DNA of 64,000 nt from Aquabacterium sp. (GTDB taxonomy: Bacteria; Pseudomonadota; Gammaproteobacteria; Burkholderiales; Burkholderiaceae_C), in the NCBI RefSeq assembly GCF_016195855.1, contig NZ_JACPYU010000008.1:1-64000 (forward strand). The letters are read 5' to 3'. Below, in pieces: positions 13,616 through 50,292 of the stretch. A model generated the notes under the pieces. That model was not told where the DNA came from. It saw nothing but the letters and a program-made list of their open reading frames with translations, and ran no database searches. Made by a program: the position numbers and the translations under genes. Position 1 is the stretch's first letter. Each line of letters starts with the position of its first letter.

Positions 13616-13631
13616 TCGTCAGTTCTGACGA
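13616..13631. promoter_or_regulatory. Island palindrome site 1 (toward Rox-like gene 1)
   Basis: TCGTCA-GTTC-TGACGA is a perfect dyad with six-base arms and a four-base centre. Its centre is 35 bases upstream of the minus-strand hexamer TATCGT, giving a predicted start near 13578 and a leader of about 100 bases before the Rox-like gene. Confidence 0.75.
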
Positions 13632-13711
13632 TTTTTGGGCTGAGGGGGCGCGCTCGGGGGGGCTCGATCGGCCTTGGGCGTTGTGTGGCCGGCACAGCAG
13701 GGCGCTGAACT

Positions 13712-13727
13712 TCGTCGCTTCTGACGA
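13712..13727. promoter_or_regulatory. Island palindrome site 2 (toward the AMACR-like operon)
   Basis: TCGTCG-CTTC-TGACGA has the same 6-4-6 geometry as site 1 and ends 71 bases before the AMACR-like ATG. The -10 at the expected distance is weak (around 13752-13759). Confidence 0.7.
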
Positions 13728-13798
13728 TGGCCCCCCTTGCCTGTCGCGGCCACCATGACAGACCTGGACGTTGGCGTCCAAGCCACAGGAGGTGACCC

Positions 13799-14965
13799 AT
13801 GGCAGGTCCGCTTGAAGGACTGAAGGTGATCGAGATGTCGGGCAGTGGCGCCGCGCCTTTTGGTGTGATGCTGCTGGCCGACATGGGTGCAACGGTGTTG
13901 CGCGTGGTGCCCTCGGATGCCCCGGTGGCGGACGGCGGTGCCGATGTCCTGGGACGGGGGCGACAGTTCCTGCCTGTGGACCTGGCGCACCCCCTGGGCG
14001 TGCAGGCCCTGCTGCAATTGGTCCAGTCAGCGGACGTGTTGATCGAGGGCTATCGCCCCGGCGTCATGGAGGCCTGGGGCCTGGATACGGAGACCTGTCT
14101 GGCGCGCAACCCCCGCCTGGTCTATGCCAGGGCCACAGGGTGGGGGCAGCATGGCCCGCTGGCGCATGCACCGGGTTGCGACATCAACCACATCGCGCTC
14201 AGTGGTGCGTTGCATGCCATTGGTCGGGATCGTGATGCGCCCGTGCCGCCGCTGAACCTGGTGGGCGAAGGCGGTGGTGGCATGGTGCTGACGCTGGGGG
14301 TGCTGGCCGCCTTGTATGAGGTGGAGCGCTCGGGCTTCGGGCAGGTGGTGGACGTGGCATCCACCGAGTCGGCCGCGCTGCTGGCATCCCGTCTGTATGG
14401 GCTCAACGCCGAAGGTCGCTGGAGCAACCAGCGTGGCGAGAACCTGCTGGATGGCGGTGCGCCGTTCTATGACACCTACGCCTGTGCCGATGGCAAGTAC
14501 GTGGCCATTGGGGCGGTCGAGCCTGGCCTGTACCTCCAGTTGCTGGACTTGTGCGGCATACAGGACAAGGCTTTTGTCGAGCAGATGGACACGGCGCGTT
14601 GGCCCATGCTCAAGCTGCGCATGGCCGATGTCTTCCTGACCCGCACGCGTGACGAATGGTGCCGGCTGCTGGAAGGCAGCGAGGCCTGTTTTGCGCCGGT
14701 ACTGGACTGCGAAGAGGCGCCCCTGCACCCCCACAACCTGGCGCGAACCGCCTTCGTGACCGTGGATGGCATCGTGCAGCCCGCCCCCGCACCCCGCTTC
14801 AGCAGGACACCGTCGTCCGTGCCCCACAAACCATCGGCCTTGCCGCTGGACAGCCTGGCGCACCACTGGGGCGTCAGCAAGCAGGACGCGCGCTGCTGGC
14901 TTGACAGCGGGGCGATCGGCAGGGTTAGCGCGGCTGACCCGAAAGTGCCGGTCAAGGCAGACTGA
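13799..14965 (+). CDS. Alpha-methylacyl-CoA racemase-like protein with altered catalytic residues (CaiB/BaiF family)
   Basis: The 388-residue protein aligns over its length with AMACR/MCR enzymes, which invert the C2 stereocentre of 2-methylacyl-CoAs: LIEGYRPGVMEAWGLD, HAIGR, PPLNLVG, GQVVDVASTES, LDGGAPFYDTYACADGKYVA, AVEP and PAPRFSRT are conserved. The two catalytic positions differ. The usual GHDINY histidine is Cys127 (GCDINH), and the NLVGDFGGG aspartate is Glu157 with the next residue deleted (NLVGEGGGG). It may therefore be a racemase with changed chemistry, or a CoA-binding relative. It starts the operon with an acyl-CoA synthetase and an acyl-CoA dehydrogenase. Confidence 0.88.
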   Translation: MAGPLEGLKVIEMSGSGAAPFGVMLLADMGATVLRVVPSDAPVADGGADVLGRGRQFLPVDLAHPLGVQALLQLVQSADVLIEGYRPGVMEAWGLDTETCLARNPRLVYARATGWGQHGPLAHAPGCDINHIALSGALHAIGRDRDAPVPPLNLVGEGGGGMVLTLGVLAALYEVERSGFGQVVDVASTESAALLASRLYGLNAEGRWSNQRGENLLDGGAPFYDTYACADGKYVAIGAVEPGLYLQLLDLCGIQDKAFVEQMDTARWPMLKLRMADVFLTRTRDEWCRLLEGSEACFAPVLDCEEAPLHPHNLARTAFVTVDGIVQPAPAPRFSRTPSSVPHKPSALPLDSLAHHWGVSKQDARCWLDSGAIGRVSAADPKVPVKAD

Positions 14966-15026
14966 GGAAAACAGCAAATGTGCAGCCAGATTGATGGCTG
15001 CGTCGTGGCCAAACAAGGAGACCAGC

Positions 15027-16583
15027 ATGCAGCTCACTCAATCACTCCATAAAGCCCAACGCGAATGCCCCAACGCGGTGGCGGTGGCATTCGGCGATCA
15101 AAGCCTGAGCTTTGCGCAGTTCAAGGACCGGGTCATGAGGCTGGCCGCCGTGCTGCAGCAACTGGGCATGCAGCCCGGTGACCGGGTCGGCATGATGGCG
15201 CTCAACTCCCGTCGCTATGTGGAATACCTGTATGGCGTCTGGTGGGGCGGCGGGGCCATCAACCCCGTCAACGTGCGCTGGAGCCCTCAGGAGGTGGCGT
15301 ATTCGCTCGATGACTGCGACACGCGCATCCTGCTGGTGGACAAGACCTTCGCCCAGCAGGCCGCCATGCTGCGGGAGAAGTCCGCGTGCCTGCGCACCCT
15401 GGTCTACTGTGATGACGGCGAGGTGCCTGCGGGCATGCTCAGCTATGAGCAGCTGATGGCGCAAGCCCAGCCGGTGGACGACGCCTGGCGCGGTGGTGAT
15501 GACCTGGCCGCTGTCATGTACACAGGTGGCACGACGGGCATGCCCAAGGGGGTGATGCTCAGCCACGCCAACCTGTACCTCAATGCCTTGAGCGCGGTGG
15601 CGGCTGTGCCACGCCCCGGGGCCAAGGTCGGGCTGGTGGTGGCGCCCTTCTTCCATGTGGCCGGCTGCGGCCTGTCGCTGCAGTTGATCCAGCGCCTGGC
15701 CACGCAGGTCATCGTGCCGGTGTTCGATGAAGCCTTGATCCTGCAGGCCATCCAGACGCACAAGGTGACCGAGACCTTCCTGGTGCCCACCATGATCAAG
15801 CGCCTGATCGAGCACCCGCGCTTCAAGGACTTCGACCTCAGCAGCCTGGGCATGTTGTTGTACGGCGCCGCACCCATTGACGGGGTCTTGCTGGACCAGG
15901 CCATGAAGGCGCTGCCGCACACCGAGTTCTGCCAGGCCTACGGGATGACCGAGCTGGCGCCCACCATTTCCGTGCTGCTGCCGGCCGATCACCAACCCGG
16001 GCCTGATCAGGAGCGGCGCTTGCGCTCGGCGGGCCGGCCGGTGCCCATCGCAGAGGTCCGCATCGTGGACCCGATGGGGCAGGAGCTGGGGCCCAACCAG
16101 GTTGGCGAAATCGTGGCCCGGGGCCCCATGGTGATGATGGGCTACTGGAACAAGCCCGCGCAAACGGCGGCCGCCTTGCGCGACGGCTGGATGCACACGG
16201 GTGATGGCGGCTACATGGACGAGCAGGGCTATCTGTATGTGGTGGACCGTCTCAAGGACATGATCATCACGGGCGGCGAGAACGTCTACACCGCCGAGGT
16301 GGAGAACGCCATTGCCAAGCTGCCGGAGGTGTCCATGTCAGCCGTGATCGGTGTGCCCGATGACACCTGGGGCGAGCGGGTGCACGCCGTGATCGTGTTG
16401 CGCGATGGCGCCACGCTGGACGAAGCCCAGGTCATCACGCATTGCAAGAGCCTGATCGCAGGCTTCAAGTGCCCACGCAGCGTCGAGTTCAGGGCGGAGC
16501 TGCCCCTGTCGCCTGCGGGCAAGTTGCAAAAGTTCGTGTTGCGTGAGCCCTTCTGGGCCGGCCGCCAACGCGGTGTGAACTAG
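15027..16583 (+). CDS. Acyl-CoA synthetase (AMP-forming)
   Basis: This ANL-superfamily ligase would activate a carboxylic acid with ATP and CoA. The ATG at 15027 has AAGGAG six bases upstream and gives 518 residues; an in-frame extension into the preceding gene is not used. Motifs are MYTGGTTGMPKG (P-loop, about 165-176), YGMTELAPT (A5), the hinge DGWMHTGDGGYMDEQGYLYV, and the C-terminal catalytic lysine Lys499 in SPAGKLQ. In the island it is the natural candidate to form the CoA ester of isoprenoid acids before beta-oxidation. Chain-length specificity cannot be read from sequence. Confidence 0.93.
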   Translation: MQLTQSLHKAQRECPNAVAVAFGDQSLSFAQFKDRVMRLAAVLQQLGMQPGDRVGMMALNSRRYVEYLYGVWWGGGAINPVNVRWSPQEVAYSLDDCDTRILLVDKTFAQQAAMLREKSACLRTLVYCDDGEVPAGMLSYEQLMAQAQPVDDAWRGGDDLAAVMYTGGTTGMPKGVMLSHANLYLNALSAVAAVPRPGAKVGLVVAPFFHVAGCGLSLQLIQRLATQVIVPVFDEALILQAIQTHKVTETFLVPTMIKRLIEHPRFKDFDLSSLGMLLYGAAPIDGVLLDQAMKALPHTEFCQAYGMTELAPTISVLLPADHQPGPDQERRLRSAGRPVPIAEVRIVDPMGQELGPNQVGEIVARGPMVMMGYWNKPAQTAAALRDGWMHTGDGGYMDEQGYLYVVDRLKDMIITGGENVYTAEVENAIAKLPEVSMSAVIGVPDDTWGERVHAVIVLRDGATLDEAQVITHCKSLIAGFKCPRSVEFRAELPLSPAGKLQKFVLREPFWAGRQRGVN

Positions 16584-16607
16584 TTTCTGACCTTCAAGAG
16601 AATAGCC

Positions 16608-17756
16608 ATGGCATTGAACACCCGTCGCTCATGGAGCGACTCCGATCTGGACCTGTTTCGAGACAATGTGATCCGCTTCATCGAGGCGGAAGTGATGCCG
16701 GACGACGAGGCGGCCCGCCAGCGTGGCCATGTCGGGCACGAGCTCTGGCGCAAAGCGGGCGCCAATGGCCTGCTGTGCATCGACATCCCCGAAGAGTACG
16801 GCGGCTGCAGCGGCGACTTTCGCCACGAGGCCACGGTGTACGAAGAGCTCAACCGCCGTGCCCTGACGGGCATCAGCACCTCGGTGCACGCCATCGTGGC
16901 GCATTACATCCTCAACCACGGCACCGAGCAGCAAAAGCGCCGCTTCCTGCCGCGCATGGCCAGTGGCGAGCTGGTGGGCGCCATCGCGATGACGGAGCCC
17001 GGCACGGGGTCTGACCTGCAGGGCATCCGCACCCGCGCGCAACGCGAGGGCGATCACTATGTGTTGTCGGGCACCAAGACCTTCATCACCAATGGCTTCC
17101 TGGCCGGCCTGGTGCTGGTGGTGGCCAAGACCGACACGACGCAGGGTGCCAAAGGCACCTCCATCCTGATCGTGGAGACGCAAGGCTGCCCCGGCTACAG
17201 CGTGGGCCGTGTGCTGGACAAGATCGGCCTGAAAGCGCAGGACACCTCCGAGCTGTTCTTTGACGAGGTCAAGGTGCCGGCTTGCAATCTGCTGGGCGAG
17301 GTCGAGGGCAAAGGCTTCTACCAGCTCATGGGTGACCTGCCTTACGAACGCCTGATCATCGCGGTCAATGCCTTGGCCGCCATGGAAGGCGCGTATGAGG
17401 CCACCTTGGACTATGTGCGTGATCGCAAGGCCTTCGGCCAGCCCATTGGCGACTTCCAGAACACCCGGTTCAAGCTCGCCGAAGTGGCCACGCAGATCAC
17501 CGTGGGCCGGGCCTTTGTGGACCAGTGCATCACGCGGCTGGTGGACGGCACGCTGGACACGGCCACCGCCTCGATGGCCAAGCTCTGGACCACGGAAGCG
17601 CAGGGCCGGGTGATCGACGAGTGCCTGCAGCTGTTTGGCGGCTACGGCTACATGAACGAGTACATGATCGGCCGCATGTACACCGATGCGCGTGTGCAGC
17701 GCATTTATGGCGGCACCAACGAGATCATGAAAGAGGTGATCGCCCGATCACTGTGA
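16608..17756 (+). CDS. Acyl-CoA dehydrogenase (LCAD/IVD-like)
   Basis: This is a 382-residue flavoprotein predicted to desaturate acyl-CoA at C2-C3. MTEPGTGSDLQG (128-139) and the helical C-terminal domain (DRKAFGQPIGDFQ, QLFGGYGYMNEY) are standard. The MCAD-type catalytic glutamate is absent: the C-terminal motif reads IYGGTNEIMKE. Instead Glu247 in LPYERLIIA occupies the position used by long-chain and isovaleryl-CoA dehydrogenases, which fits branched or long substrates. It is third in the operon after the AMACR-like gene and the synthetase. Confidence 0.93.
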   Translation: MALNTRRSWSDSDLDLFRDNVIRFIEAEVMPDDEAARQRGHVGHELWRKAGANGLLCIDIPEEYGGCSGDFRHEATVYEELNRRALTGISTSVHAIVAHYILNHGTEQQKRRFLPRMASGELVGAIAMTEPGTGSDLQGIRTRAQREGDHYVLSGTKTFITNGFLAGLVLVVAKTDTTQGAKGTSILIVETQGCPGYSVGRVLDKIGLKAQDTSELFFDEVKVPACNLLGEVEGKGFYQLMGDLPYERLIIAVNALAAMEGAYEATLDYVRDRKAFGQPIGDFQNTRFKLAEVATQITVGRAFVDQCITRLVDGTLDTATASMAKLWTTEAQGRVIDECLQLFGGYGYMNEYMIGRMYTDARVQRIYGGTNEIMKEVIARSL

Positions 17757-17804: not shown

Positions 17805-20549
17805 TCAGCGGATCACCGCGAGTTTGCGTGCGATGGCCACGGCCTGTGTGCGGCTGTGGGCCCCCAGCTTCATGTTGATGTTGCGCAGGTGGGTGCGCAC
17901 GGTGCTGTCAGACACAAAGAGCTTTTCAGCCATGGCGCTGTTGGAGTAGCCCTCGGCCAGCAACTGCAGCACGCGGATCTCTTTGCGCGTCAAGGGCTCT
18001 GACAGCGCCTCACCTGGCTTGATGGCGGACTCGCCCTCCATGGCTGGTGCAGGGCCTGCAGCCTTGATCAGCCTTTGCAGGTGTTCGTGGAAGATGGGGT
18101 CGTCCGTGAGCTGGCGGCGGCCCGTGGGCTCACCTTGCAGGTGGGCATAACAGCGGTGCAACAGGGCCGCCGCCGCCTGGCCTTCATCCAGGATCAGCTG
18201 CATGAAGCCTTCCTGACAGGTTTGGTGCAGCACGTCCAGCAAGGTGTCCATGGCCGCGGGCAGGTTGCCGCTGCGTTGCAAGGCCAGGGCCTTGAGCACG
18301 CGCAGCTTGAGGACCCGCCCATGGCGGGTGCGCTCCAGCGCATCCTGGATGTCCTCGTGCGCACTGAGCAGCGCCCGGGCGGGGTCACCGAAGGTGATCT
18401 CCCAGCGCAGGTGGCCCAGTTGCAGGTCCTCCAGCTCCTGGGCGGGCAGCCGTTGGCGAGACACGCGTGACCACAGGGCCTGGTCATTGGCCCGGTCCAG
18501 CTCGTCACGCGAGACCTGTGCATGCCCTTGCAGCAAGAGCATGCGGGCGCGCTCCAGCTTGGCGCTGGCCACCACCCGCGGCAGCTGACGGTGGTGGCCC
18601 AGGTACTCCAGCTCGGTCAGCACATGAAAGGCCGCGTCGATGTCGCCCCGGTGGAAGGCGATGCGCGAGCGCAGCACGTGGCTGAGGATCATGTGATCGG
18701 GCAGGCCCACATCGCGCGCCAATGGCAGGTAGATGTTGAGCAGGTGCTCGGCCTCATCGAGCTGGTTGGTCTCGTACACCACGGCGGCATAGAAGACGCC
18801 GGCCCAGGCATGGCCATTGGTGTGGTTGTAGCCGGTCTTGTGCTCGCCCGTGGCGGCCAGGCGAAAGCGTGCCGTGGCCTGGCGCAGGCGACCTTCCTGC
18901 AGGTCCAGCAGGCCTTCCATGGATTCGGTGTAGATGCGCACAAAGGTGCTGGTGCCTTGTGTGGAGCGGGCGCTGTCCAGCAGGCGATGGGCTTCATGGT
19001 GATGCCCCATCACGGAGGCCACATTGGCCATGGCATTGGTCAGCACGCTGTCGGCAAAGGGCTTGCCGCTGGGCAGCTCGGCCAGGGATTCGCGCCCGAT
19101 GCGGTAGGCCTCCTCGTAGCGGTCCATCATGGCCAGCAAGAGCGGGTGCAGGGCCCTGATGTTGGCGCGCACATCGGCGTCCTGGCCGCCCACCAGCAAG
19201 GCCTGCTCCAGTTGCGGCATGGCCTGCCAGGGCCCTTGTGTGAAGCAGATCGTCCACACGGACACGGCCATGAGGCGCGGGTTGGCGCGCAGGGATTCTT
19301 TGGGAATCAAGGCAAACCAACGTGACAGCAGCCGCAACTGGCCGTTGGCCAGGAACTGGTCTGCCCAGGGTGTCAGCAGGGTCAGGGCATGTGGGAAGTC
19401 GCCACCCTCGATGGCGTGGTCGATCGCCTGGACGGGATGGCCGTTGGATTCATACCAGGCGGAAGCCGCCAGGTGCAGACGGGAGCATTCTTCCGGTTGT
19501 TCACGCATCAGCTGGTTGCGCAGGAAGTCGGCAAACAGGCTGTGATAGCGCCATGAGGGCAAGGTGCTGGGGCCGTCATGGATGGGGTTGAGGAAAAGGT
19601 TGGCCGTATCGAGCTGCTCCAGGATGCGGGCGCAGTCCAGCCGCGGGTTGAGCGCCTGGCACAGCGGTGCATGCAGCTGCCTGAGCACGCTGGTGCGCAA
19701 GAGGAAGCTGCGCACGTCCTCGCTTTGCCGCGACAGCACGTCTTCGGCCAGGTAGTCGGCAATGGCCCGGTTCGAGCCAGAGAAGCGCTCGATGAAGTCG
19801 GCGCTCTGCCCGCGGCGTTCCAGGGCCATGGACGCCAGCCACAGCGCGGCCACCCAGCCTTCGGTCTTCTCATGCAGCTGGGTGATGGCCGCTGCAGGCA
19901 GGTTGGTCAACTTGCGCAACTGGAAGAACAGGCGCGTTTCTTCCAGCGTGAAGCGCAGATGCTCCGCGTCGATCTCGGTCAGCTGGCCACGTGCCCGCAG
20001 GCGGCCCAGGCCCAGATCGGGCAGGCTGCGTGAGCCAATGACGATCTGGCCTCGGCGCGGCAGCCTGTCGAGCATCTCGCGCACCAGTCCCAGCACAGCC
20101 TGCTCCTGGATGCACTCGAAATCGTCCAGGAACAAGGCAAAAGGCGAGCTGTGATCGGCCAGGACGTTGAGCACATCGGCTTGAGCGCGATCGTCGTCGG
20201 TCTCCGTGGTCAGGCGTGCCACGGCATCACTCAAGCCTTTGAGGAAGCGGGACACGTCGTTGTCCGAGCGATCCAGCGTCAGCCAGGCCGTGGCCACGCC
20301 TTCTTCTTCCAGGCAGATGCGGGCTTGCTGCATGGCTGTGGTCTTGCCATAGCCGGCGGGTGCGCGCACCAGGATCAACTTCGCACTGATGGCCTGCCGG
20401 ATGCGATCGCATGCGGTGGCCCTCAGCACCTGCGTATAGCTTGCGTTTAACGCATCTGCCTTGTTGGGCGGGTGCGCTGGGTTGACGGCCTCGGCCGGTG
20501 CTTGAGAGGGGGCCGCGACAGGACATTGCAGCGGGAAGAGGGTGCCCAT
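17805..20549 (-). CDS. LuxR-family regulator of the MalT/LAL type, paralogue 1
   Basis: This large ATP-dependent transcription factor has a STAND NTPase domain with Walker A APAGYGKTT (63-71) and FLDDFE as Walker B, a winged-helix/TPR-like middle, and a C-terminal LuxR HTH (LTRKEIRVLQLLAEGYSNSA, then SDSTVRTHLRNIN). I choose the ATG at 20549, which has AGGA six bases upstream, giving 914 residues; a start 26 codons earlier is possible. Such proteins usually activate catabolic operons when bound to an inducer and ATP. A second paralogue lies at 44454-47294. The island palindromes are their likely targets, one of them (20654) between this gene and the adjacent thiolase. Confidence 0.9.
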   Translation of the reverse strand: MGTLFPLQCPVAAPSQAPAEAVNPAHPPNKADALNASYTQVLRATACDRIRQAISAKLILVRAPAGYGKTTAMQQARICLEEEGVATAWLTLDRSDNDVSRFLKGLSDAVARLTTETDDDRAQADVLNVLADHSSPFALFLDDFECIQEQAVLGLVREMLDRLPRRGQIVIGSRSLPDLGLGRLRARGQLTEIDAEHLRFTLEETRLFFQLRKLTNLPAAAITQLHEKTEGWVAALWLASMALERRGQSADFIERFSGSNRAIADYLAEDVLSRQSEDVRSFLLRTSVLRQLHAPLCQALNPRLDCARILEQLDTANLFLNPIHDGPSTLPSWRYHSLFADFLRNQLMREQPEECSRLHLAASAWYESNGHPVQAIDHAIEGGDFPHALTLLTPWADQFLANGQLRLLSRWFALIPKESLRANPRLMAVSVWTICFTQGPWQAMPQLEQALLVGGQDADVRANIRALHPLLLAMMDRYEEAYRIGRESLAELPSGKPFADSVLTNAMANVASVMGHHHEAHRLLDSARSTQGTSTFVRIYTESMEGLLDLQEGRLRQATARFRLAATGEHKTGYNHTNGHAWAGVFYAAVVYETNQLDEAEHLLNIYLPLARDVGLPDHMILSHVLRSRIAFHRGDIDAAFHVLTELEYLGHHRQLPRVVASAKLERARMLLLQGHAQVSRDELDRANDQALWSRVSRQRLPAQELEDLQLGHLRWEITFGDPARALLSAHEDIQDALERTRHGRVLKLRVLKALALQRSGNLPAAMDTLLDVLHQTCQEGFMQLILDEGQAAAALLHRCYAHLQGEPTGRRQLTDDPIFHEHLQRLIKAAGPAPAMEGESAIKPGEALSEPLTRKEIRVLQLLAEGYSNSAMAEKLFVSDSTVRTHLRNINMKLGAHSRTQAVAIARKLAVIR

Positions 20550-20653
20550 GGTGCTTCCTGCAAGTTGATTTCTTCTGGGTGTGAAGGGCATTGTCTGCCT
20601 CGCCCATCGCCCCGTCTCTACGTGCAATACCTGAGTGGTGGCACGTGCGATTT

Positions 20654-20669
20654 CCGTCGCTTCCGACGA
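20654..20669. promoter_or_regulatory. Island palindrome site 3
   Basis: CCGTCG-CTTC-CGACGA has the same 6-4-6 layout with one mismatch in the left arm. Its centre is 33 bases before TAGACT (20692-20697), a plausible -10 that places the start about 24 bases before the thiolase ATG. On the minus strand a weaker TATTGC (20624-20629) lies 35 bases away, so the regulator gene may also be controlled here. Confidence 0.75.
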
Positions 20670-20728: not shown

Positions 20729-21933
20729 ATGAACGACGTTTATGTTTACGACCATGTGCGCACCCCGCGCGGCAAAGGCCGGCCCGATGGGGCGCTGCAT
20801 GAAGTCACGCCCGTGCGGCTGGCCGCATGCGTGCTGAGTGGCTTGCAGGCACGACAGGCATGGGATACGGACCTGATCGACGAGGTCGGGCTGGGCGTGG
20901 TGATGCCCGTTGGCGAGCAAGGTGCCGACATCACACGCACGGCCTTGCTGGAGGCCGGGTACAGCGAGGACATCGCGGGCTATCAACTCAACCGCTTTTG
21001 CACATCGGCGCTGGACACCGTGAAGATGGGCTGTGCCCTGATCGGCTCGGGCCAGGCTGAGGCGGTCATTGGTGGCGGGGTGGAGTCCATGTCGCGCGTG
21101 CCGATTGGCTGTGACGGTGGTGCGAGCTACACCGACCCTGCGGTGGGGCGCCGCCACCCCTATATCCCCAACGGGGTGGCGGCCGACCTGATGGCCACGC
21201 GCGCCGGGCTGGAGCGGGCCGAGCTGGATGCCTATGCGGTGGAAAGCCAGCGCCGCGCGGCCCATGCGCAAGCCCATGGTCACTTCAGTCAATCGCTGTT
21301 GCCCTTGCTGGACCTTCTGGGGCAGCCGCTGCTGCAGCACGATGAGGCCGTGCGGCCCCGGACCACGCTGGCAGACCTGGCTCGCCTCAAGCCCGCCTTC
21401 GAGGCGCTGGGCGCGGCCGGCTATGACGACATCCTCTTGCGGCGTTACCCGGAGTTGGCCGCCATTGCGCACCTGCACACCAGCGGCAATTCGAGCGCCA
21501 TCGTCGATGGGGCCTGCGCCGTGCTGATGGGCAGCGCCGCGTTCGGGCACAAGGCGGGGCTGCGGCCCAGGGCCCGTGTGCGTGCGGTGCTCAGCGGGGC
21601 CTCCGAGCCTTTGCTGAGCCTGGGTGGCCCCATGCCCGTGAGCCGCAAGGCCTTGCAGCGTTGCGGCATGCGCGTGGCCGACATCGACCTCTTCGAGGTC
21701 AACGAAGCCTTTGCCGTGGTGCCGCTTTGCTACATGCGCGAGATGGGTGTGGAGGCGGACAAGGTCAACGTCAATGGTGGCGCGATTGCGCTGGGGCACC
21801 CACTGGGTGCCACCGGTGCCATCTTGCTGGGGACCGCGCTGGATGAACTGGAGCGGCGTGATCTGAACACAGCTTTGATCACGTTGTGTGCGGCGGCAGG
21901 GCAGGCCACTGCCTTGGTGATGGAGCGAGTGTG

Positions 21934-21934
<1 letters not shown>
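20729..21934 (+). CDS. Acetyl-CoA acyltransferase (thiolase), FadA-like
   Basis: This predicted 3-ketoacyl-CoA thiolase releases acetyl- or propionyl-CoA in the last step of beta-oxidation. GGAGG lies just before the ATG at 20729, giving 401 residues. The nucleophile is Cys91 in NRFCTSALD, and [15 protein letters not shown] supplies the conserved histidine. The second catalytic cysteine is Cys387, but the usual CxGGG motif reads LCAAAGQA, an unusual replacement of the glycine loop. The stop overlaps the next start by one base (TGATG). Confidence 0.92.
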
Positions 21935-24341
<2,407 letters not shown>

Positions 24342-26609: not shown

Positions 26610-26652
26610 CCCCCTCGACGACGACGCTCATCCACCCCATTTGAGGACCTCC

Positions 26653-35124: not shown

Positions 35125-35126
35125 AC

Positions 35127-37257: not shown

Positions 37258-37293
37258 GATGGGCCTTTCAGGCGGATGGATGGTGTGTGGCCA

Positions 37294-39774: not shown

Positions 39775-39802
39775 GGTGTCGGGTTGTGATCCGTTGGGCG
39801 AG

Positions 39803-40963: not shown

Positions 40964-40966
40964 GAC

Positions 40967-42328: not shown

Positions 42329-42360
42329 GAAGTGGGTCTCCATAGCGGGTATCGGTCTTC

Positions 42361-44181
42361 TTAGAAGCTGGCGCTCAACACCAGAGAGAGGAAGTCGCGG
42401 TCATGGAAGCTGTCAAAGCGCGCGTTGGCGTTGAAGGTCGTGTAGCTCAGGTCCACCGCATAGCGCTTCTGGTAGTCCAGCTTGACGCCCGGGCTGATGA
42501 CATGGCGCCCCTGGCTGAAGACACTGTCGGCCGACCAGCCCTGCACGTCCTTGGCCAGGAAGAGCCGGGGCTTGACCACAAAGCCTTCGATCAGATTGGG
42601 GTACTCCAGCTCGACCAGGCCGCGCACGCCCCAGGCGGTGGAGGTGAAGTAGCCGTCTTGCGTGCAGTTGCGGGTGTTGGTTGCCGCTGCGGGGCAGGCG
42701 CCGCCAAAGGACGCGTGAGGGCCCGCGCCGTATTCGAAGCCACGGCCGTAGCGCACACCGCTGTAGGGATCTCCGATGCCCATCCAGTGCTGGAAGGCCA
42801 CTTCACCCATCACGGTGCCCGACGATGCCCCCAGCACATTGGAGACCAGCTTCAAGGTCGAGAACTGGAACTGCGTCTTGTTCTTGCGGTCATAGCCCAC
42901 GTTGTAGGTGCCGGAAGCCAGCGGGGCCGCCGCGAAGCCCCAGCGCGAGGCCATGGGGCCAAGGCCTTGAACCATCGCGTAGAAGCCGTCCACCGAGTTG
43001 ATCTGCACGGGGAAGTCCTTCGTGTAGCTCATCTCGCCGGCGACCGACCAGCCGTTGACCACGGTCGATGCGCTCAGGCCCGTCACCTTGATCTTGTCGG
43101 CCGAGTAGTCCCAGAAGACCGAGCCCAGCGAGGGCGAGTTGGTGTAGGCCGAGCCTGCCACGCTGCTGTTGTCCCGCACGCCGGACAGGTTGGGCACGTG
43201 GGTGTTGTACTGCACGTGGTACAGGCCGAACTCGGTGTCGATGGCCTCGACCATCTTCTTGGCGGCCAGGCCAAACTGGTTCTTGTCCGAGCCTTCGCGG
43301 TCGGCCGACAGCGGGAAGCGGAAGTTCGCGCCACCCAGGCCGGGTACACCGTTCCAGCCGAGATAGGAGTCTGAGCCGGCCACATCCTGGTTCACCAGGA
43401 TCGAGCCTTTGGTGCAGTTCAGAGCCGTGGCCGGCGACCAGAAGGTGCCGCAGCCGTCGATGCTGGTGCGCTTCCATTGCAGCTGGTAGAAGCCCTCCAG
43501 CGACAAGCCACCGCCCAGGCCCAGGTTGGCCGAAATCTGCGGGACCGGCAAGATGGCCTCTTTGAGCAGGGTGCCCGATTGCCGCAAGGCATTGATGTCC
43601 AGCACCTGGTACTGGTTGACGCCGGGCACAAACAGGCTCTCACCAAAGTTGACAACGTGCTGTCCCAGACGCACTTTGAGCTGGGCGTCTTCAGAGAGGT
43701 CCACGCCGCCATAGACATAGGCGTCCAGCAGCTCAACCCCGCTGAACTTGGACAGGTTGGTGTCGAAGTCGTCGTCCCTGAGTTTGGTGTCGGGCACGAA
43801 GTCATTGGTGGCCGCGCCAAAGGGAACGGACTTGTGGCTCAGGCGGTAGTTGTCCCATGCCTTGGCACGCACCATGGCACCGAACTGACCCTTGTGGATG
43901 TCCACGTCACCGACCAGACGTGCCAGGGTGCTGAAGTTCTTCCACTTGCCCCAGTTCTTGTCGGCCGAGCCGGTGTAGGCCGAGCCGGTGCCGCCATCGT
44001 TCTGGCCGATCAGATCGGAGTCGGGGGACTTGGTTCGCCAGCCGCCGGTGAGCGAGGCATTGAGTGACCAGGTGGCTTCCAGGCCATCACCCAGGTCAGT
44101 GGTGCCAGCCAGGGCAGGCAGCGGGGCGCTCCATGCCAGGTAGACGAGGGTCGACAGACCCACGGACTTCACAACGCGCAT
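42361..44181 (-). CDS. DUF1302 porin-like outer-membrane protein
   Basis: This 606-residue protein has a signal peptide (about 1-25, ending ALA), extensive alternating beta-strand sequence, and a terminal phenylalanine (LSLVLSASF) as expected for a BAM-inserted outer-membrane barrel. Family blocks include LRLVGDV-type strands and the KVRLGQHVVNFGESLF motif. GAGGAGA precedes the ATG. It is the first gene of an operon running through DUF1329, YCF48-like, MMPL, alcohol dehydrogenase and kinase, and its promoter carries an island operator. It is the best candidate for outer-membrane passage of the substrate. Confidence 0.9.
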   Translation of the reverse strand: MRVVKSVGLSTLVYLAWSAPLPALAGTTDLGDGLEATWSLNASLTGGWRTKSPDSDLIGQNDGGTGSAYTGSADKNWGKWKNFSTLARLVGDVDIHKGQFGAMVRAKAWDNYRLSHKSVPFGAATNDFVPDTKLRDDDFDTNLSKFSGVELLDAYVYGGVDLSEDAQLKVRLGQHVVNFGESLFVPGVNQYQVLDINALRQSGTLLKEAILPVPQISANLGLGGGLSLEGFYQLQWKRTSIDGCGTFWSPATALNCTKGSILVNQDVAGSDSYLGWNGVPGLGGANFRFPLSADREGSDKNQFGLAAKKMVEAIDTEFGLYHVQYNTHVPNLSGVRDNSSVAGSAYTNSPSLGSVFWDYSADKIKVTGLSASTVVNGWSVAGEMSYTKDFPVQINSVDGFYAMVQGLGPMASRWGFAAAPLASGTYNVGYDRKNKTQFQFSTLKLVSNVLGASSGTVMGEVAFQHWMGIGDPYSGVRYGRGFEYGAGPHASFGGACPAAATNTRNCTQDGYFTSTAWGVRGLVELEYPNLIEGFVVKPRLFLAKDVQGWSADSVFSQGRHVISPGVKLDYQKRYAVDLSYTTFNANARFDSFHDRDFLSLVLSASF

Positions 44182-44310: not shown

Positions 44311-44326
44311 TCGTCACTTCAGACGA
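44311..44326. promoter_or_regulatory. Island palindrome site 7 (DUF1302 operon)
   Basis: TCGTCA-CTTC-AGACGA lies between the DUF1302 operon and the second LAL regulator. Its centre is 34 bases from the minus-strand hexamer TAAATT (44282-44287; 4 of 6). No similar -10 is evident toward the regulator gene. Confidence 0.75.
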
Positions 44327-44453
44327 TTTGGCTGGCCTGCAACTGCGTGAAACCCCTCTGATGCCTTGTCGTGAAATAACGCAATATCCCCGGCTGCGGT
44401 GGCCTCAGGCAGCACGCTGCCGCCTGGGGTCTCATCACTCACAAGGCATCAAC

Positions 44454-47294
44454 ATGGGCGATTCCCTTGCCGCATCCTCGGTCCCCACAGCCGGTGCGGG
44501 GCCCTGGGGCGATGTTCAACTTCAAGGGGTGATGGTCAACAAGACCACGCCACCGGTCGCCAGCCCATCCGAGGTGCTTCGGCAGGCGATCTGCGAGCGG
44601 GCGCTCCAGGCCCAGCAAGCGCGTGTGGTGCTGGTCCGTGCCCCTGTCGGGTATGGCAAGACCACGGCGCTGCGCCAGATTCGGGGCCGGCTGTCGCAGT
44701 TGGGCGTGGCCACCGGTTGGTTGACGCTGGACCGCGCCGACAACGACTTGCCCCGGTTTCTCCAGGCCCTGGCCTGGGCTTTGGCGGGTGTTCTGCCTGC
44801 GGGCGCATCGGGGCAGTTGGGGCCGTCTGGACAGTCAGGAGCGGGCGCCTTGCTCAACCAGCTCGCATCCAGCCCCCGTCCGTTCACGCTGTTTCTGGAT
44901 GACGTGGAAGCCATCCACGATGCGCAGGTGCTGGACGTGCTCAAGGAGCTGATCATCCACCTGCCCGATGGTTCAAGGGTGATGGCCGCTTCCCGATCCA
45001 TGCCGGAGTGGGGGCTGGCGCGTTTGCGCGTCCATGGTCAGTTGCTGGAAATCGATGTTCAGGACCTGCGGTTCACGCAGGACGAGGCCAGCAGCTTCTT
45101 TGCACGCCGCCGGCATGGCCCCTTGCCCGCCGCTGCAATGGCTGAGTTGTGGCGCAAGACAGAGGGCTGGATCGCGGCCATGTGGCTGGCGTCCGTGGCC
45201 CTGGATCGCAAGGGGGCCGACAGCGCCTTCATCGCGTCCTTCTCCGGCTCCAACAAGGCCGTGGCCCATTACCTGGCCAAGGCGGTGCTGGCCGAATTGC
45301 CCGCCGATGTGCGGCAGTTTCTGTTGCGCACCAGCATCCTCCATCAGATGACGGTACCTTTGTGCCACGCGCTGACGCCTCGTTGCGAAGCGCAAGGCCT
45401 GGCCGACATGGAGCGCATGCTGGACTGGCTGGAGGAGGCCGAGTTCTTTGTTCGCCCGGTGGCGCAGGATGGGCAGGACGGTGTGGGGCGCAGCTGGCGC
45501 TATCACGGCCTCTTTGTCGACTTTCTGCGGGATCAGCTTCGTCGGGATCAGCCGCATGAATACACGCGCCTGCATCTGGCTGCTTCAGCCTGGTTCGAGT
45601 CGCAGGGCCGCCCGGTACCCGCGATCGACCACGCCCTGGAGGGTGGCGATGTGCCCCAGGCGCTGACCCTGTTGTCCCAGCATGCGCAGCGCTTCGTGGA
45701 GCAAGGGCGCATGCGCATGCTGACCCGTTGGTTCACGCTGATTCCCTCATCCCAGCTGGTGCCCTATCCGCTGCTGGAGAGCATCGCCATCTGGGCCACC
45801 TTCTTCACCAAGGGGCCCGCCGAGGCCTTGAGCGCGCTGCAACGGTCGGGGTGCGAGTCCAGCACCGACACGTTGGTGCAGGCCAAGTTGCGCACCTTGC
45901 GGCCTTTGCTGATGGCCCTCCTGGACCGTTACGAGGAAGCCCTGACTTTGGGGCGGGATGCCCTGACCCAACTGCCCAGTGGCTGCTCGTTCTCGGACAT
46001 TGGCCTGGCCAATGCCATGGCCCATGTGGCCTCGGTGGTGGGCGATGCGGGCATGACGCGCCAACTGCTGGATGAGGCACGGCGCACCCCGCGCAGCAAC
46101 CCGTTCACGCGGACCTTCACCGAATCCGTGGAAGGGATGCTGGACCTGCACGATGGGCGCCTTCAGCAGGCAACGGCCCGCTTGCGCATGGCCGTGGGCG
46201 AGAGTGGCAGCGCCATGCCGGTGGTCACGCCGGCCAACCAGATCGAGGGCAACGCCTGGGCCGGCGTGCTCTATGCCGCGGCCTTGTATGACGCCAACCG
46301 CCTGGATGACGCGCAGCAGCGGCTTCATGTCTACAGCCCCTTGGCCAAGGAGACGGGCCTGCCCGACCACATGATCCTGGGGCATGCGCTGCGCGCGCGC
46401 ATTGCCTACAGCCGGGGTGATCTGGACCTGTGCCAGGAGGCGCTGAGTGACCTGGAATACCTCGGCCACCAGCGGCAGCTGCCGCGTGCCGTGGCGGCCG
46501 CCCACCTGGAGCGCGCGCGCGTCTTGCTCCTTCAAGGGCAGGCCAGGCCGGCCCGGGATGCGCTGGACGCCGCAGACCTGCCCGGCCTGTGGGAGCGCGT
46601 CAACCGGCAAAGGCTGGTGGCGCACGACATCGAGTACCTGCAGCTGGCGCGCATCCGGTGGGAGCTGCACCATGGTGACGCGCGGCGTGCCGTGGCCCTG
46701 ATCGAGTCGGAGCTGGCGGCAGCCGAGCAAGTCGGCCGAGGGCGCCGGGCGCTCAAGCTCCATTTGCTGCTGGCCCTGGGGCAGCAGCAGTGCGCGGACA
46801 TCGCGGGCAGCATCCAGACCGCCGAGCGGGCCTTGAGGCAAGCCTGCCGTGATGGCTTCGTGCGCATGGTGCTGGATGAAGGGCCGGTACTGCTGCCGGT
46901 GGTTCAACGCCTGCAGCGACCGCATGTGGCCGACCCAGCTCCCGATCATGGCGCCGATCATGCCGCCGAGTACGTGGGCGCCTCCAGGGACCCGATCTGG
47001 GATGACTATCTGCAGACCCTGGTGAGCGCGCTGCAGGACATGGGCGCGGCCCATCAGGCCCATGCCGAGCCCTTGCCGGCTGCTCGCGAGGCCGAACTGG
47101 CCGGCATGACCCCTCAGGAGATCCGCGTGCTGCACCTGCTGGCGCAAGGGTGCTCCAACAGCGACATGGCGAGCCGGCTCAAGGTGTCTGACAGCACGGT
47201 GAGGACGCACTTGCGCAACATCAACGCCAAGCTGGGCGCACACAACCGCATGCAGGCCATCGCCGCAGCACGCCGGCTGGCCGTGATCGCCTGA
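44454..47294 (+). CDS. LuxR-family regulator of the MalT/LAL type, paralogue 2
   Basis: This 946-residue paralogue of the regulator at 17805-20549 has the same layout: Walker A APVGYGKTT (63-71), FLDDVE, a long helical repeat region and a C-terminal HTH (MTPQEIRVLHLLAQGCSNSD, SDSTVRTHLRNINAKLGAH). The recognition helices of the two proteins (VSDSTVRTHLRNIN) are identical over their core, so they probably read the same DNA site. AAGG lies seven bases before the ATG at 44454. The regulatory halves differ more, which allows different inducers or heteromeric control. Confidence 0.9.
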   Translation: MGDSLAASSVPTAGAGPWGDVQLQGVMVNKTTPPVASPSEVLRQAICERALQAQQARVVLVRAPVGYGKTTALRQIRGRLSQLGVATGWLTLDRADNDLPRFLQALAWALAGVLPAGASGQLGPSGQSGAGALLNQLASSPRPFTLFLDDVEAIHDAQVLDVLKELIIHLPDGSRVMAASRSMPEWGLARLRVHGQLLEIDVQDLRFTQDEASSFFARRRHGPLPAAAMAELWRKTEGWIAAMWLASVALDRKGADSAFIASFSGSNKAVAHYLAKAVLAELPADVRQFLLRTSILHQMTVPLCHALTPRCEAQGLADMERMLDWLEEAEFFVRPVAQDGQDGVGRSWRYHGLFVDFLRDQLRRDQPHEYTRLHLAASAWFESQGRPVPAIDHALEGGDVPQALTLLSQHAQRFVEQGRMRMLTRWFTLIPSSQLVPYPLLESIAIWATFFTKGPAEALSALQRSGCESSTDTLVQAKLRTLRPLLMALLDRYEEALTLGRDALTQLPSGCSFSDIGLANAMAHVASVVGDAGMTRQLLDEARRTPRSNPFTRTFTESVEGMLDLHDGRLQQATARLRMAVGESGSAMPVVTPANQIEGNAWAGVLYAAALYDANRLDDAQQRLHVYSPLAKETGLPDHMILGHALRARIAYSRGDLDLCQEALSDLEYLGHQRQLPRAVAAAHLERARVLLLQGQARPARDALDAADLPGLWERVNRQRLVAHDIEYLQLARIRWELHHGDARRAVALIESELAAAEQVGRGRRALKLHLLLALGQQQCADIAGSIQTAERALRQACRDGFVRMVLDEGPVLLPVVQRLQRPHVADPAPDHGADHAAEYVGASRDPIWDDYLQTLVSALQDMGAAHQAHAEPLPAAREAELAGMTPQEIRVLHLLAQGCSNSDMASRLKVSDSTVRTHLRNINAKLGAHNRMQAIAAARRLAVIA

Positions 47295-47342: not shown

Positions 47343-48509
47343 TCAGGCGGCCATGGCATCGACCAGATCGTCGCGCAAGGCGGCCACCCGCTGCAGGTGC
47401 CAGTCGACGTTGCCAAACAGGCTCTCGATCTCCGTGGCCCTTCGGAAGAAATGCCCGATGGCCAGCTCTTCCGTCATGCCCATGCCTCCGTGGATCTGAA
47501 CGGCGCCTTGGCCCACGAGCTTGCAGGCCTTGGCCGTGGCGATCTTGGCAGACGACACGGCCAAGGCGCGTGCGGCAGGTGTCGCGTGCAGGGCGTCCAC
47601 CACCGAGGCGGTCAACGCTGCAGCTTGTTCCAGCGACAAGTACATGTCAGCCAGGCGGTGCTGCAGGGCCTGGAAGCTGCTGATGGGCGCACCAAACTGC
47701 TTGCGTTGGCGTGCGTAGTCCACCGTGTCATGCAGCAGGCGCTGCAAGACCCCGATGGCTTCGGCGCAAAGGGCCAGGGTGGCCTCGTCCATCACCTGCT
47801 CGATCAGTGGCAAGGCCCCGCCAACGGGCCCCATGATCTGGCTGGGTGAGATGGCCACGTGGTCGAAGGTCAATTCGCTGGCCACGCCCCCATCGAGTGT
47901 GCGCACATCGTTGCAGTGCACGCCCGCCGTGTGCGCCGGGATGCAGACCAGCGAGATGCCATCGCGCTCCCAGGGCGCTCCCAGGCTGCGCGCCGTGACC
48001 AGCAGGTGCGTGGCCCATGGGGCGCAACGCACCACGGTCTTGCGGCCCTGGAGGATGTGCTTGTGGCCGCCCTCAACGGGTGTCAGGGTGGTGCGCACAT
48101 CGTGCCAGTCGTGGCGGCTGCTGGGTTCGGTGGCAGCGAAGGCCACGACCGCATCACCATGGAGCATGCGCGTCAGCATCTGCCGGGCCTCGGGGGTGGC
48201 CAGGCGCTTGAACACCCCGCCGGCAATCACGATGGTCGACAGGTAAGGCTCGGCTGCCAGCGACGCGCCCAGGGTCTCCATCACCACCAGGTTGTCGAAC
48301 ATGTCGCCGCCCAGGCCACCGAGTTCTTCGCTGAACGGCAGCCCGAGAATGCCCAGCTCATTGGTGAGTTCGTGCCACAGCGGCGGCCAGTTGCCGGCCG
48401 TGGCCAGCAGATGGGCGCGTTGCTCCGTCTTGTAGCGGTCCGACAGGAGGCGGGCCAGGCTGTCGCGCAGCATGGTCTGGGTTTCATTCAATTGAAAGCA
48501 ACTGTCCAT
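47343..48509 (-). CDS. Acyl-CoA dehydrogenase-family subunit without catalytic glutamate
   Basis: This 388-residue protein has the acyl-CoA dehydrogenase fold, but its C-terminus reads QIHGGMGMTEELAIGHFFRR and lacks a glutamate base at either usual site. The flavin loop ATEPSSRHDW is also degenerate. This resembles the non-catalytic partner of alpha2-beta2 dehydrogenases such as ChsE/FadE pairs of steroid side-chain degradation. The probable partner is encoded 15 bases upstream at 48525-49709. Its stop lies close to the convergent regulator gene, with a dyad (47308-47316/47340-47348) between them. Confidence 0.88.
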   Translation of the reverse strand: MDSCFQLNETQTMLRDSLARLLSDRYKTEQRAHLLATAGNWPPLWHELTNELGILGLPFSEELGGLGGDMFDNLVVMETLGASLAAEPYLSTIVIAGGVFKRLATPEARQMLTRMLHGDAVVAFAATEPSSRHDWHDVRTTLTPVEGGHKHILQGRKTVVRCAPWATHLLVTARSLGAPWERDGISLVCIPAHTAGVHCNDVRTLDGGVASELTFDHVAISPSQIMGPVGGALPLIEQVMDEATLALCAEAIGVLQRLLHDTVDYARQRKQFGAPISSFQALQHRLADMYLSLEQAAALTASVVDALHATPAARALAVSSAKIATAKACKLVGQGAVQIHGGMGMTEELAIGHFFRRATEIESLFGNVDWHLQRVAALRDDLVDAMAA

Positions 48510-48524
48510 GGTGCTGTCCTTTCC

Positions 48525-49709
48525 TTATTGCGCCAGCAGGTGCGCGGCGACGAGGTTGCGCTGGATCTCATTGGTGCCGGCATAGATGGAGGCGGCCCGG
48601 TCGTTCAGGTAGGCCGACATCGCGAACGAGGCCTCTTCGTCCAGCCCTTGCTGCGCGCACAGGTGCATGGGGGTGCGAACCTGCCCGCGGTGTGCGGCAA
48701 TCAGGATGCCGATCTCGGTCAGGTGCTGTCGCAGCTCGGTGCCCAGCAGCTTGGTCACCGACGGCCTGATCCCCGGTGGTGTGCCCATGGCATCGGCCCT
48801 GAGGGCGCGGATCTCCAGGGCCTCCACGGCATCGATCTGGCAATGCGCCTCGGCGAGCTTGAGCTTGATCAGCTGCCGCTCCAGGCTATGGGGCGGTTGG
48901 TGCGCAAAGGCGTCCTGCGCGGCCTTGTCCAGGCGCCGCATGCGTGCGCGCAGTTGGGGTGCCCAGGCGCTGCCCCGTTCATGTTGAAGCAGGTATTTCG
49001 CAATCGCCCAGCCCTGGTTCTCTTCGCCGATCAGGCCTGAAGCCGGCACCCTGAGGTCATCGAAGAAGACCTGGTTGAGTTCATGGTCCCCCGAGATGCT
49101 GATGATGGGACGGATGGTGATGCCCGGTGTGCCCAGGTCAAAGCACAGGAAGCTGATGCCCTGCTGCGGCTTGCCGCCTGTGGCCGTGCGCACCAGGCAG
49201 AACATCTTGTTGGCGTACTGGGCATGCGTTGTCCAGATCTTGGTGCCATTGATGATGTAGTGAGCACCATCGCGCACGGCCCGGCATTGAAGCGAGGCCA
49301 GGTCCGAGCCCGATTGCGGCTCGGAGTAGCCCTGCGCCCAATAGTCGTCCCCGCTGCGTATGCCGGGCAACCAGCGCGCCTGTTGTTCTGGCGTGCCAAA
49401 GGCGATGATCACCGGGCCCACCATGCCGGTGCCCATGGGCGCCAGAGGGGGCGCATCGGCGGCGGCCAGCTCACAGGCAAAGAGGTAGTGCTGCATGGGC
49501 GTCCAGCCTGTGCCCCCATGCTCGGTGGGCCAGCGCGGCACGCTCCAGCCTTGGGCGGCGAGGATCTGGTGCCAGCGGATGCCGTCGGGGTAGTCGGTGA
49601 AGATGCCCGATGCACGGCGGCCGGCCAGGCGCAGATCTTGCGTCAGTGCGGTGTCGAGAAAGGCCCGCACTTCATCCCGAAATGCGTTTTCAGATTCAGT
49701 CAAGACCAT
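48525..49709 (-). CDS. Acyl-CoA dehydrogenase, catalytic partner subunit
   Basis: From the ATG at 49709 (GGAG nine bases upstream) the product is 394 residues. It has YSEPQSGSDLASL for flavin/substrate binding, and Glu244 in LLQHERGSAW at the LCAD-type base position; the C-terminus reads SIYAGTNEIQRN. The N-terminal part (PRWPTEHGGTGWTPMQHYLF) is characteristic of FadE-type subunits used in heteromeric dehydrogenases for bulky substrates. With the adjacent gene it likely forms one enzyme. A longer frame start upstream lies within the globin gene on the other strand and is rejected. Confidence 0.92.
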   Translation of the reverse strand: MVLTESENAFRDEVRAFLDTALTQDLRLAGRRASGIFTDYPDGIRWHQILAAQGWSVPRWPTEHGGTGWTPMQHYLFACELAAADAPPLAPMGTGMVGPVIIAFGTPEQQARWLPGIRSGDDYWAQGYSEPQSGSDLASLQCRAVRDGAHYIINGTKIWTTHAQYANKMFCLVRTATGGKPQQGISFLCFDLGTPGITIRPIISISGDHELNQVFFDDLRVPASGLIGEENQGWAIAKYLLQHERGSAWAPQLRARMRRLDKAAQDAFAHQPPHSLERQLIKLKLAEAHCQIDAVEALEIRALRADAMGTPPGIRPSVTKLLGTELRQHLTEIGILIAAHRGQVRTPMHLCAQQGLDEEASFAMSAYLNDRAASIYAGTNEIQRNLVAAHLLAQ

Positions 49710-49765
49710 GTGAGTCCACTCCAATACGGTGCGGACAGTTTTGCAGTTTGTGAATGTCGACTGAA

Positions 49766-49781
49766 TCGTCGAAACAGACGA
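49766..49781. promoter_or_regulatory. Island palindrome site 8 (shared by ACAD pair and globin)
   Basis: TCGTCG-AAAC-AGACGA is almost exactly midway between the divergent start codons (56 and 57 bases). Toward the globin, TAGACT (49803-49808) lies 32 bases from its centre; toward the dehydrogenases, AAAACT (minus strand, 49737-49742) lies 34 bases away. Confidence 0.75.
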
Positions 49782-49838
49782 ACCCAAAACCCATGGGATT
49801 CGTAGACTGGCGAACACGCTGAACAAAAGGAGTTTGAG

Positions 49839-50261
49839 ATGGATCCCAAAGTGATTGAACTGGTGCAGGGCAGTTGGCGCTCGGTCGAGCCTATCGCACC
49901 GCAGGCCGCCGCGCTCTTCTATGGCAAGCTGTTTGAAGCCGACCCTGCGCTGAAGAGCCTGTTCAAGGGTGACATGGCACAGCAAGGTGCCAAGCTCATG
50001 CAGATGATTGGCGCCGCTGTGCGAGGGTTGAACGATGTGCCTGCCCTGTTGCCGGTGTTGCAGGCGCTGGGCGCGCGCCATCAAGGCTATGGCGTGAAGC
50101 CGCAGGACTACGAGGTTGTGGGTGCGGCCTTGCTCGACACCTTGGCCCAAGGCTTGGGCGAAGCGTTCACCACCGAGGTGCGGGACGCCTGGACCACGGT
50201 CTACCAGACCATGGCCAGTGTCATGACCCAGGCTGCGGAACAAGCGCGCGCGGCGGCCTGA
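49839..50261 (+). CDS. Single-domain bacterial haemoglobin
   Basis: This 140-residue globin-fold protein resembles Vitreoscilla haemoglobin and the globin domain of flavohaemoproteins. His81 in ALGARHQGYGV is the proximal haem ligand, followed by the conserved VKPQDYEVVGAALLDTL. There is no FAD/NAD reductase domain. It shares one island operator with the dehydrogenase pair and precedes the second Rox-like oxygenase, so it may help oxygen supply or nitric-oxide protection during oxygen-dependent polymer cleavage. That role is inference. Confidence 0.92.
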   Translation: MDPKVIELVQGSWRSVEPIAPQAAALFYGKLFEADPALKSLFKGDMAQQGAKLMQMIGAAVRGLNDVPALLPVLQALGARHQGYGVKPQDYEVVGAALLDTLAQGLGEAFTTEVRDAWTTVYQTMASVMTQAAEQARAAA

Positions 50262-50276
50262 GTCTGATCGGCAAAA

Positions 50277-50292
50277 TCGTCTGAAAGGACGA
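50277..50292. promoter_or_regulatory. Island palindrome site 9 (Rox-like gene 2)
   Basis: TCGTCT-GAAA-GGACGA starts 16 bases after the globin stop and ends 89 bases before the Rox-like ATG. Its centre is 34 bases upstream of TAGTGT (50316-50321), a modest -10 match. Confidence 0.7.

Follow-up and report, generated by a model that had tools for sequence, protein, structure and literature searches.

A palindrome before the operons of an Aquabacterium rubber-degradation island as putative operator of a LAL-type activator

The first 64,000 nucleotides of contig NZ_JACPYU010000008.1 of Aquabacterium sp. (RefSeq assembly GCF_016195855.1), hereafter the window, hold a rubber-degradation island in which nearly every operon is preceded by a copy of the palindrome TCGTC-N6-GACGA. 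According to a Pfam scan of the window proteins, the island encodes two RoxA-like oxygenases, two CoA-transferases, an acyl-CoA ligase, four acyl-CoA dehydrogenases, FadB, thiolases, hydratases and short-chain dehydrogenases/reductases (SDRs), together with a nitronate-monooxygenase family protein, a DUF1302/DUF1329/YCF48/MMPL transport set, a globin, two large LuxR-type regulators (LALs) and, at its edge, an AraC-family protein; the two LALs and the AraC protein are the only regulators among the window proteins scanned. The RoxA-like cytochrome domain PF21419, combined with a match over the whole mature length to PDB entry 4b2n, which we take to be RoxA, identifies the RoxA/RoxB type of rubber oxygenase, and NCBIfam gave mostly general names to the beta-oxidation enzymes. 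LAL regulators are typically proteins of about 900-1000 aa in which a Walker A NTPase at the N-terminus is followed by a MalT TPR region and a GerE helix-turn-helix at the C-terminus; both LALs carry PF17874 and PF00196 above cut-off and a visible GYGKTT Walker A stretch, their NTPase Pfam matches lying below cut-off, and the true start of LAL2 is probably further downstream than 44328. All coordinates are gathered in Table 1.

Eight exact palindromes occur in the window, against a chance mean of 0.02 and a largest chance value of 1, and none of 100 shuffles reached eight. When one mismatch is allowed, 16 matches are found (chance mean 1.23, largest 4), among them the site at 20654; the exact and one-mismatch searches agree on the nine sites listed in an earlier note on this DNA, eight of them exact and 20654 with one change. 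The remaining single-mismatch matches lie at 24241, 24742, 31844, 37997, 40341, 52861 and 63937. The same note had reported no sites in the flanks, and indeed the window holds zero exact copies outside 13616-50292. It had also placed all nine sites between genes, which holds once gene starts are reset by Pfam domain starts and ATGs, a mechanical caller of longest open reading frames (ORFs) having put 20654, 49766 and 50277 within over-extended frames. The start codon of the assigned gene is found about 56-135 nt from each of the nine palindromes, roughly the 55-130 that had been claimed. The 6-4-6 geometry has to be abandoned: the sixth arm base (positions 6 and 11) is complementary in only two of the nine sites (13616 and 20654), and the palindrome is therefore 5-6-5. 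As for the centre, described as STTY on one strand, six of the nine sites conform strictly and 33779, 33836 and 50277 do not.

Table 1. Palindromes, regulators and putative target genes of the island (positions in the window)
Feature	Position	Strand or facing	Details
Palindrome TCGTCAGTTCTGACGA	13616..13631	faces roxB (-)	-10-like TATCGT 13586-13591 (-)
Palindrome TCGTCGCTTCTGACGA	13712..13727	faces CoA-transferase operon (+)	weak -10-like CACCAT 13751-13756, score 2.4
Palindrome CCGTCGCTTCCGACGA, one change	20654..20669	between LAL1 (-) and thiolase (+)	-10-like TAGACT 20692-20697 (+)
Palindrome TCGTCACTTTCGACGA	24355..24370	before fadB-like operon (+)	-10-like TACAGT 24394-24399
Palindrome TCGTCCGTTGCGACGA	33779..33794	faces thiolase-like/acyl-CoA dehydrogenase/SDR operon (-)	weak -10-like GACACT 33750-33755 (-), score 2.5
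Palindrome TCGTCAAATGCGACGA	33836..33851	faces second CoA-transferase gene (+)	-10-like AAGAAT 33875-33880
Palindrome TCGTCACTTCAGACGA	44311..44326	between DUF1302 transport operon (-) and LAL2 (+)	-10-like TAAATT 44282-44287, facing transport operon
Palindrome TCGTCGAAACAGACGA	49766..49781	between acyl-CoA dehydrogenase operon (-) and globin (+)	-10-like TAGACT 49803-49808 (+); weaker AAAACT 49737-49742 (-)
Palindrome TCGTCTGAAAGGACGA	50277..50292	before roxA (+)	-10-like TCTAGT 50314-50319, or TAGTGT two bases on
roxB-like second rubber-oxygenase gene	11387..13480	-	PF21419; 77-79% identical to roxA-like gene
Putative target operon: CoA-transferase family III, acyl-CoA ligase, acyl-CoA dehydrogenase	13799..17756	+	
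LAL1, MalT-like with LuxR/GerE helix-turn-helix, proposed binder	17805..20627	-	PF17874, PF00196; clade of motif-bearing LALs
Putative target operon: thiolase, enoyl-CoA hydratase, nitronate-monooxygenase family protein	20729..24341	+	
Putative target operon: FadB, SDR, thiolase, enoyl-CoA hydratase	24459..29482	+	
Putative target operon: thiolase-like protein, acyl-CoA dehydrogenase, SDR	30197..33723	-	
Putative target gene: second CoA-transferase family III	33913..35124	+	
Putative target operon: DUF1302, DUF1329, YCF48/BNR, MMPL transport set, then zinc-type alcohol dehydrogenase, APH-like protein	35127..44181	-	
LAL2, LAL1 paralogue	44328..47294	+	49% identical; common helix-turn-helix stretch VSDSTVRTHLRNIN
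Putative target operon: two acyl-CoA dehydrogenases	47343..49710	-	
Putative target gene: globin	49839..50261	+	PF00042
roxA-like rubber-oxygenase gene	50382..52418	+	PF21419; PDB 4b2n match over residues 22-678

The expectation that a genome-wide count would single out the island was borne out only in part. Exact palindromes number 32 in the 4.88 Mb genome and matches to a reversed control pattern number 33; the arms alone are therefore not enriched and the bare count is uninformative as an enrichment test. The copies are nonetheless clustered, with eight of the 32 falling between genes within the 64 kb, and few of those elsewhere precede genes (2 of 24). The mechanical caller had put 23 of the 24 outside copies in ORFs, and the one at position 68566 of contig C13 (C13:68566) was then reclassified as preceding a gene, because the domain of its protein starts well inside the longest ORF; a second copy, C17:173449, is intergenic. 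The 22 others lie in reading frames; for 19 of them the longest possible start is over 400 nt away, and for the other three it is 22, 88 and 253 nt away. Both C13:68566 and C17:173449 have a -10-like box 22-26 nt away on one side or the other, and none of the 22 in-frame copies has one. At C18:78670 the palindrome lies only 22 nt inside the longest form of an acyl-CoA dehydrogenase-like ORF; it has no such box on either side and was set aside as chance. C8:6402, 88 nt after a longest start, has only a weak box (2.4). Eleven sites are counted in the genome, nine in the window plus C13:68566 and C17:173449. Of the seven exact matches that the genome holds to a stricter, oriented form, YCGTCNSTTYNGACGAT, the island accounts for six and C17:173449 is the seventh.

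The spacing to the -10-like box recurs in a larger set of sites. From 103 collected sites, one without flanks and nine under the score cut were dropped, and removal of near-copies from the remaining 93 left 78, a set that still contains some sites inside genes; orientation relied on the site and five flanking bases alone. In 56 of the 78 non-redundant sites a -10-like box scoring at least 2.65 follows, to one side or to both, at a distance of 22-26 nt, compared with 1-9 of 78 for other five-base windows, and the best offset is 24 in both directions. Seven of the nine window sites reach 2.65 with a box facing the catabolic gene, and the consensus downstream of the site lacks TTGACA. If the box at 22-26 nt is indeed the -10, the centre of the site would come to lie near -43, and the predicted layout is that of a class II activator.

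Conservation among relatives with Rox also supports an operator. Using two strict peptide patterns on genome contigs, we found Rox loci in three relatives, Aquabacterium soli SJQ9, Roseateles sp. YR242 and Ca. A. excrementipullorum, each with two exact palindromes 65-66 bp apart upstream of the Rox gene and with further copies preceding orthologous genes in its island stretches. Across five orthologous promoters, which cover seven of the nine sites (all but 49766 and 50277) in 2-3 species each, 70 of 70 arm bases are identical as against 354 of 1073 other bases; the arms of 13616, for instance, are kept in the alignment with A. soli and Ca. A. excrementipullorum. LAL and motif are present in all four Rox genomes found. 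The second LAL of Roseateles sp. YR242 was matched piecewise inside a very long open frame. Within 399 genomes of the family, with two candidates scored per genome, full-length Rox was found only in the genome of the window itself (two matches), and a Rox search on plasmids gave one weak partial match. One family genome (G091) holds, at C1:2581069-2581257, a 69-aa frame like the RoxA C-terminus (residues 613-678, 51%), with no other Rox match listed there.

The motif itself is broader than the rubber island and accompanies a clade of LALs in relatives where full-length Rox was not found. Close orthologues of LAL1 occur in 26 other genomes of the family set (two candidates scored per genome), the limit for a close LAL, E <=1e-280, having been placed at a visible gap after looking. 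The form TCGTCNSTTYNGACGAT is present in all 26 genomes with a close LAL, in one of nine intermediate genomes and in 18 of 363 others, our own genome excluded (Fisher p 4e-29, a value that ignores relatedness and the post-hoc limit); a control pattern gave four matches across the 399 genomes, and adding the intermediate group leaves 27 of 35 against 18 of 363. The site also lies beside the regulator: among 29 close LAL loci, drawn from these and near genomes, the 750 nt before the Walker A stretch contain an exact site in 13 and, once one mismatch is tolerated, a site in 22, whereas 40 other, mostly more distant LALs (L130-L169, taken down the ranked list and hence not random, a few of 44-54% identity) have no exact site and six with one mismatch. 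The 16-mer at 20654, CCGTCGCTTCCGACGA, recurs on the other strand upstream of the LAL1 orthologue in seven genomes (L101-L107). In a tree without L081, L190 and any row of less than about 780 aa, and in which window LAL1 was labelled exact despite its one change, all LALs with exact sites fall in one group of 37 rows, six one-mismatch rows lying outside. Sixteen LAL surroundings of 20 kb from Rox-less relatives contain some island-like genes and 1-4 exact copies each, many before operons and a few in genes, and the site is conserved across species beside both regulator and target genes. Two LALs with the VADTTVRTHLRHIN helix (L184 and L129, from G018 and G136) have no upstream site of their own, and exact palindromes lie about 1-5 kb away.

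The earlier note had read the palindromes as operator sites governing the catabolic operons and had named the two LALs as candidate binders, and the invariant arms, the fixed -10 spacing, the sites at 22 of 29 LAL loci and the co-occurrence of motif and clade (26/26 versus 18/363) all speak for this proposal. It seems reasonable to argue, with a probability that we put at about 85%, that the palindromes are putative operators of a LAL activator of the MalT/AlkS type, LAL1 and/or LAL2, whose regulon would be wider and is probably older than rubber use. Comparison with other genomes suggests, in other words, that a large LuxR-type activator docks at the palindrome, and that its regulon would also cover lipid breakdown in relatives where no full-length rubber-cutting enzyme was found. 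LAL1 and/or LAL2, charged with ATP and inducer, would bind as dimers to TTTCGTC-N-STTY-N-GACGATG, each dimer being centred about 43 bp upstream of the transcription start and contacting RNA polymerase where a -35 box would otherwise stand, and would in this way bring polymerase to promoters with a TAGACT-like -10 box and no -35 box. Sites between divergent genes could serve one or both sides, and the inducer may come from the cleavage of an isoprenoid, as the product itself or as its CoA ester. The analysis shows the sequence of the sites, their conservation, their spacing and their co-occurrence with the LALs; from these we infer that a LAL binds, that it activates and does not repress, what its inducer may be, and in which order the regulon evolved.

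Several observations weigh against the assignment to the LALs, and it is in their light that other binders must be considered. The -10-like boxes are weak at two of the nine window sites (13712 and 33779, scores 2.4 and 2.5), and those facing LAL1 and LAL2 are weaker still (2.2 and 1.9), and autoregulation is therefore not supported. Seven of the 29 close LAL loci lack a site in their own upstream zone, and 18 genomes without a close LAL still carry one or two copies of the motif. Since only two candidates per genome were scored, absence of a LAL or of Rox is not proven, and since LAL presence is inseparable from island presence, co-occurrence alone does not name the binder. This confounding leaves room for a regulator encoded elsewhere, such as an activator of the CRP/FNR family, whose sites are 5-6-5, are centred near -42 and stand in class II placement; the geometry and the distance to the -10 box found here would suit such a protein. 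Yet the motif tracks the LAL clade and lies upstream of the LAL itself at most of its loci, and no CRP-type domain was seen in the scan of window proteins, which did not extend to CRP-family genes in the rest of the genome; we consider this origin unlikely. The AraC-family protein at 52431-53516, which adjoins roxA as a third regulator beside the island, is a still poorer candidate: AraC proteins usually bind direct repeats, and the protein has no match in 25 related island stretches that all carry the exact motif, a count of 0/25 which, partial as the coverage of the islands is, led us to reject it as binder.

Whoever binds, the palindromes might also be repressor operators, at which a LAL or another protein blocks transcription until an inducer arrives, and promoter-proximal palindromes are indeed typical of repressors too. 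Repressor sites, however, usually vary in position and overlap the promoter, whereas these sites end about 24 nt before the -10-like box at a near-fixed spacing, and repression is accordingly given little credence here, even though the sole LAL with footprints that was found, SCO6993, acts as a repressor in the accessible part of its description (PMC9628970). That the palindrome is nothing but a repeat element, a hairpin or a product of base composition could draw on its genome-wide frequency, which does not exceed that of the reversed control; clustering, intergenic placement, arm conservation and the constant -10 spacing are all unexpected on such an origin and contradict it, so that it deserves almost no weight.

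With the LALs retained as the preferred binders, the two sites outside the window deserve attention. C13:68566 is identical to the 49766 site and has a -10-like TAGCAT at +24; the nitronate-monooxygenase family gene that it precedes is located 18 kb beyond the island. C17:173449, on another contig, precedes a gene for an Lcp/DUF2236-family oxygenase (C17:173494-174534, product 347 aa) with the MPAB/Lcp catalytic domain PF09995 (51 bits, cut-off 23); against PDB it shows weak similarity to solved proteins, the best match being trans-anethole oxygenase (E 7e-6), with the Lcp rubber oxygenase 5o1m/5o1l at E 0.001-0.002. Its orthologues in A. soli (70%) and Ca. A. excrementipullorum (71%) stand directly behind a palindrome within the island stretches, and TAGCGT is found at +24 in all three promoters; the island stretches of Roseateles sp. 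YR242 gave no match to this oxygenase.

It is tempting to go further and to suppose that one LAL operator unites the diheme RoxA/RoxB, the Lcp/DUF2236-family oxygenase, uptake and isoprenoid beta-oxidation in a single rubber regulon, which would have arisen by the addition of promoters to an older LAL programme for lipids or terpenoids, with the LAL sensing a common isoprenoid intermediate and the Lcp-family gene keeping its operator-promoter unit after separation from the island in this genome; we hold this only tentatively, at somewhat less than even odds. In this genome the Rox genes, the globin, the DUF1302/DUF1329/MMPL transport set and the Lcp-family oxygenase all carry the same promoter unit. 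Apart from this wider supposition, the data are most simply read as the recruitment of Rox by a LAL beta-oxidation regulon that was already there: relatives without Rox have the LAL, the motif and beta-oxidation genes together, and all four Rox genomes have LAL and motif. In practical terms, Rox-based rubber degradation in Gram-negative bacteria would thereby gain a candidate activator and an operator of exact layout, and a clade of LALs a predicted operator defined by sequence; the scan rule made from site and box has already led to an unlinked candidate oxygenase, and the arrangement suggests a way in which a catabolic programme already in place can take in a polymer-cleaving enzyme.

Two neighbouring features may be mentioned here. 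The globin gene, which adjoins roxA, lies between two palindromes and has no match in the related island stretches searched. Genes for CcmF, CcmE and a CcmH-type TPR protein (3847-11319) lie near the second rox gene, with an aldehyde dehydrogenase between, which fits the maturation need of a diheme cytochrome.

The two diheme oxygenases belong to the same enzyme family as RoxA/RoxB of Steroidobacter cummioxidans 35Y and Rhizobacter gummiphilus NS21, and a term search of the accessible text of papers on these two Rox systems returned no regulator of rox genes. The literature searched, mostly without subscription papers, likewise contained no regulator or operator for Gram-negative Rox-based rubber degradation, which is not proof of absence; searches on DUF1302 and DUF1329 with LuxR did not lead to this system, nor did those on a beta-oxidation regulon under a LAL, and the site sequence looked for was not present in the available part of PMC3367932. 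The island transport operon resembles AmeABCD, the monoterpene transport set of Castellaniella defragrans, of which AmeA is a DUF1302 protein, AmeB a DUF1329 protein and AmeD an inner-membrane RND transporter, and the main text of that paper contains neither the word LuxR nor regulator (PMC6394551). Among characterized LALs, SCO6993 of Streptomyces coelicolor likewise binds palindromes, its own promoter included, but differs in that it represses antibiotic regulators and that its authors could not predict a consensus site, according to the portion of the article consulted (PMC9628970). MalT of the Escherichia coli maltose regulon shares its domain layout with LAL1 and LAL2 (a P-loop region with weak Pfam matches, the MalT TPR and the GerE helix-turn-helix), and the half-site GACGA resembles the MalT box GGA[TG]GA as given in the same portion of PMC9628970. 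MalT boxes are short motifs, whereas the half-sites here form an inverted repeat with fixed spacing, and with GACGA as half-site and beta-oxidation and oxygenase genes as targets this is not a MalT-box regulon. Alongside MalT, the nearest known system is AlkS of Pseudomonas putida GPo1, a LuxR/MalT-family activator of a hydrocarbon pathway which, in the accessible part of PMC3664771, acts on the alk pathway and on its own gene through the alkBFGHJKL and alkST promoters. AlkS serves two plasmid gene clusters, whereas here a single motif precedes about ten operons and is met again in other genera.

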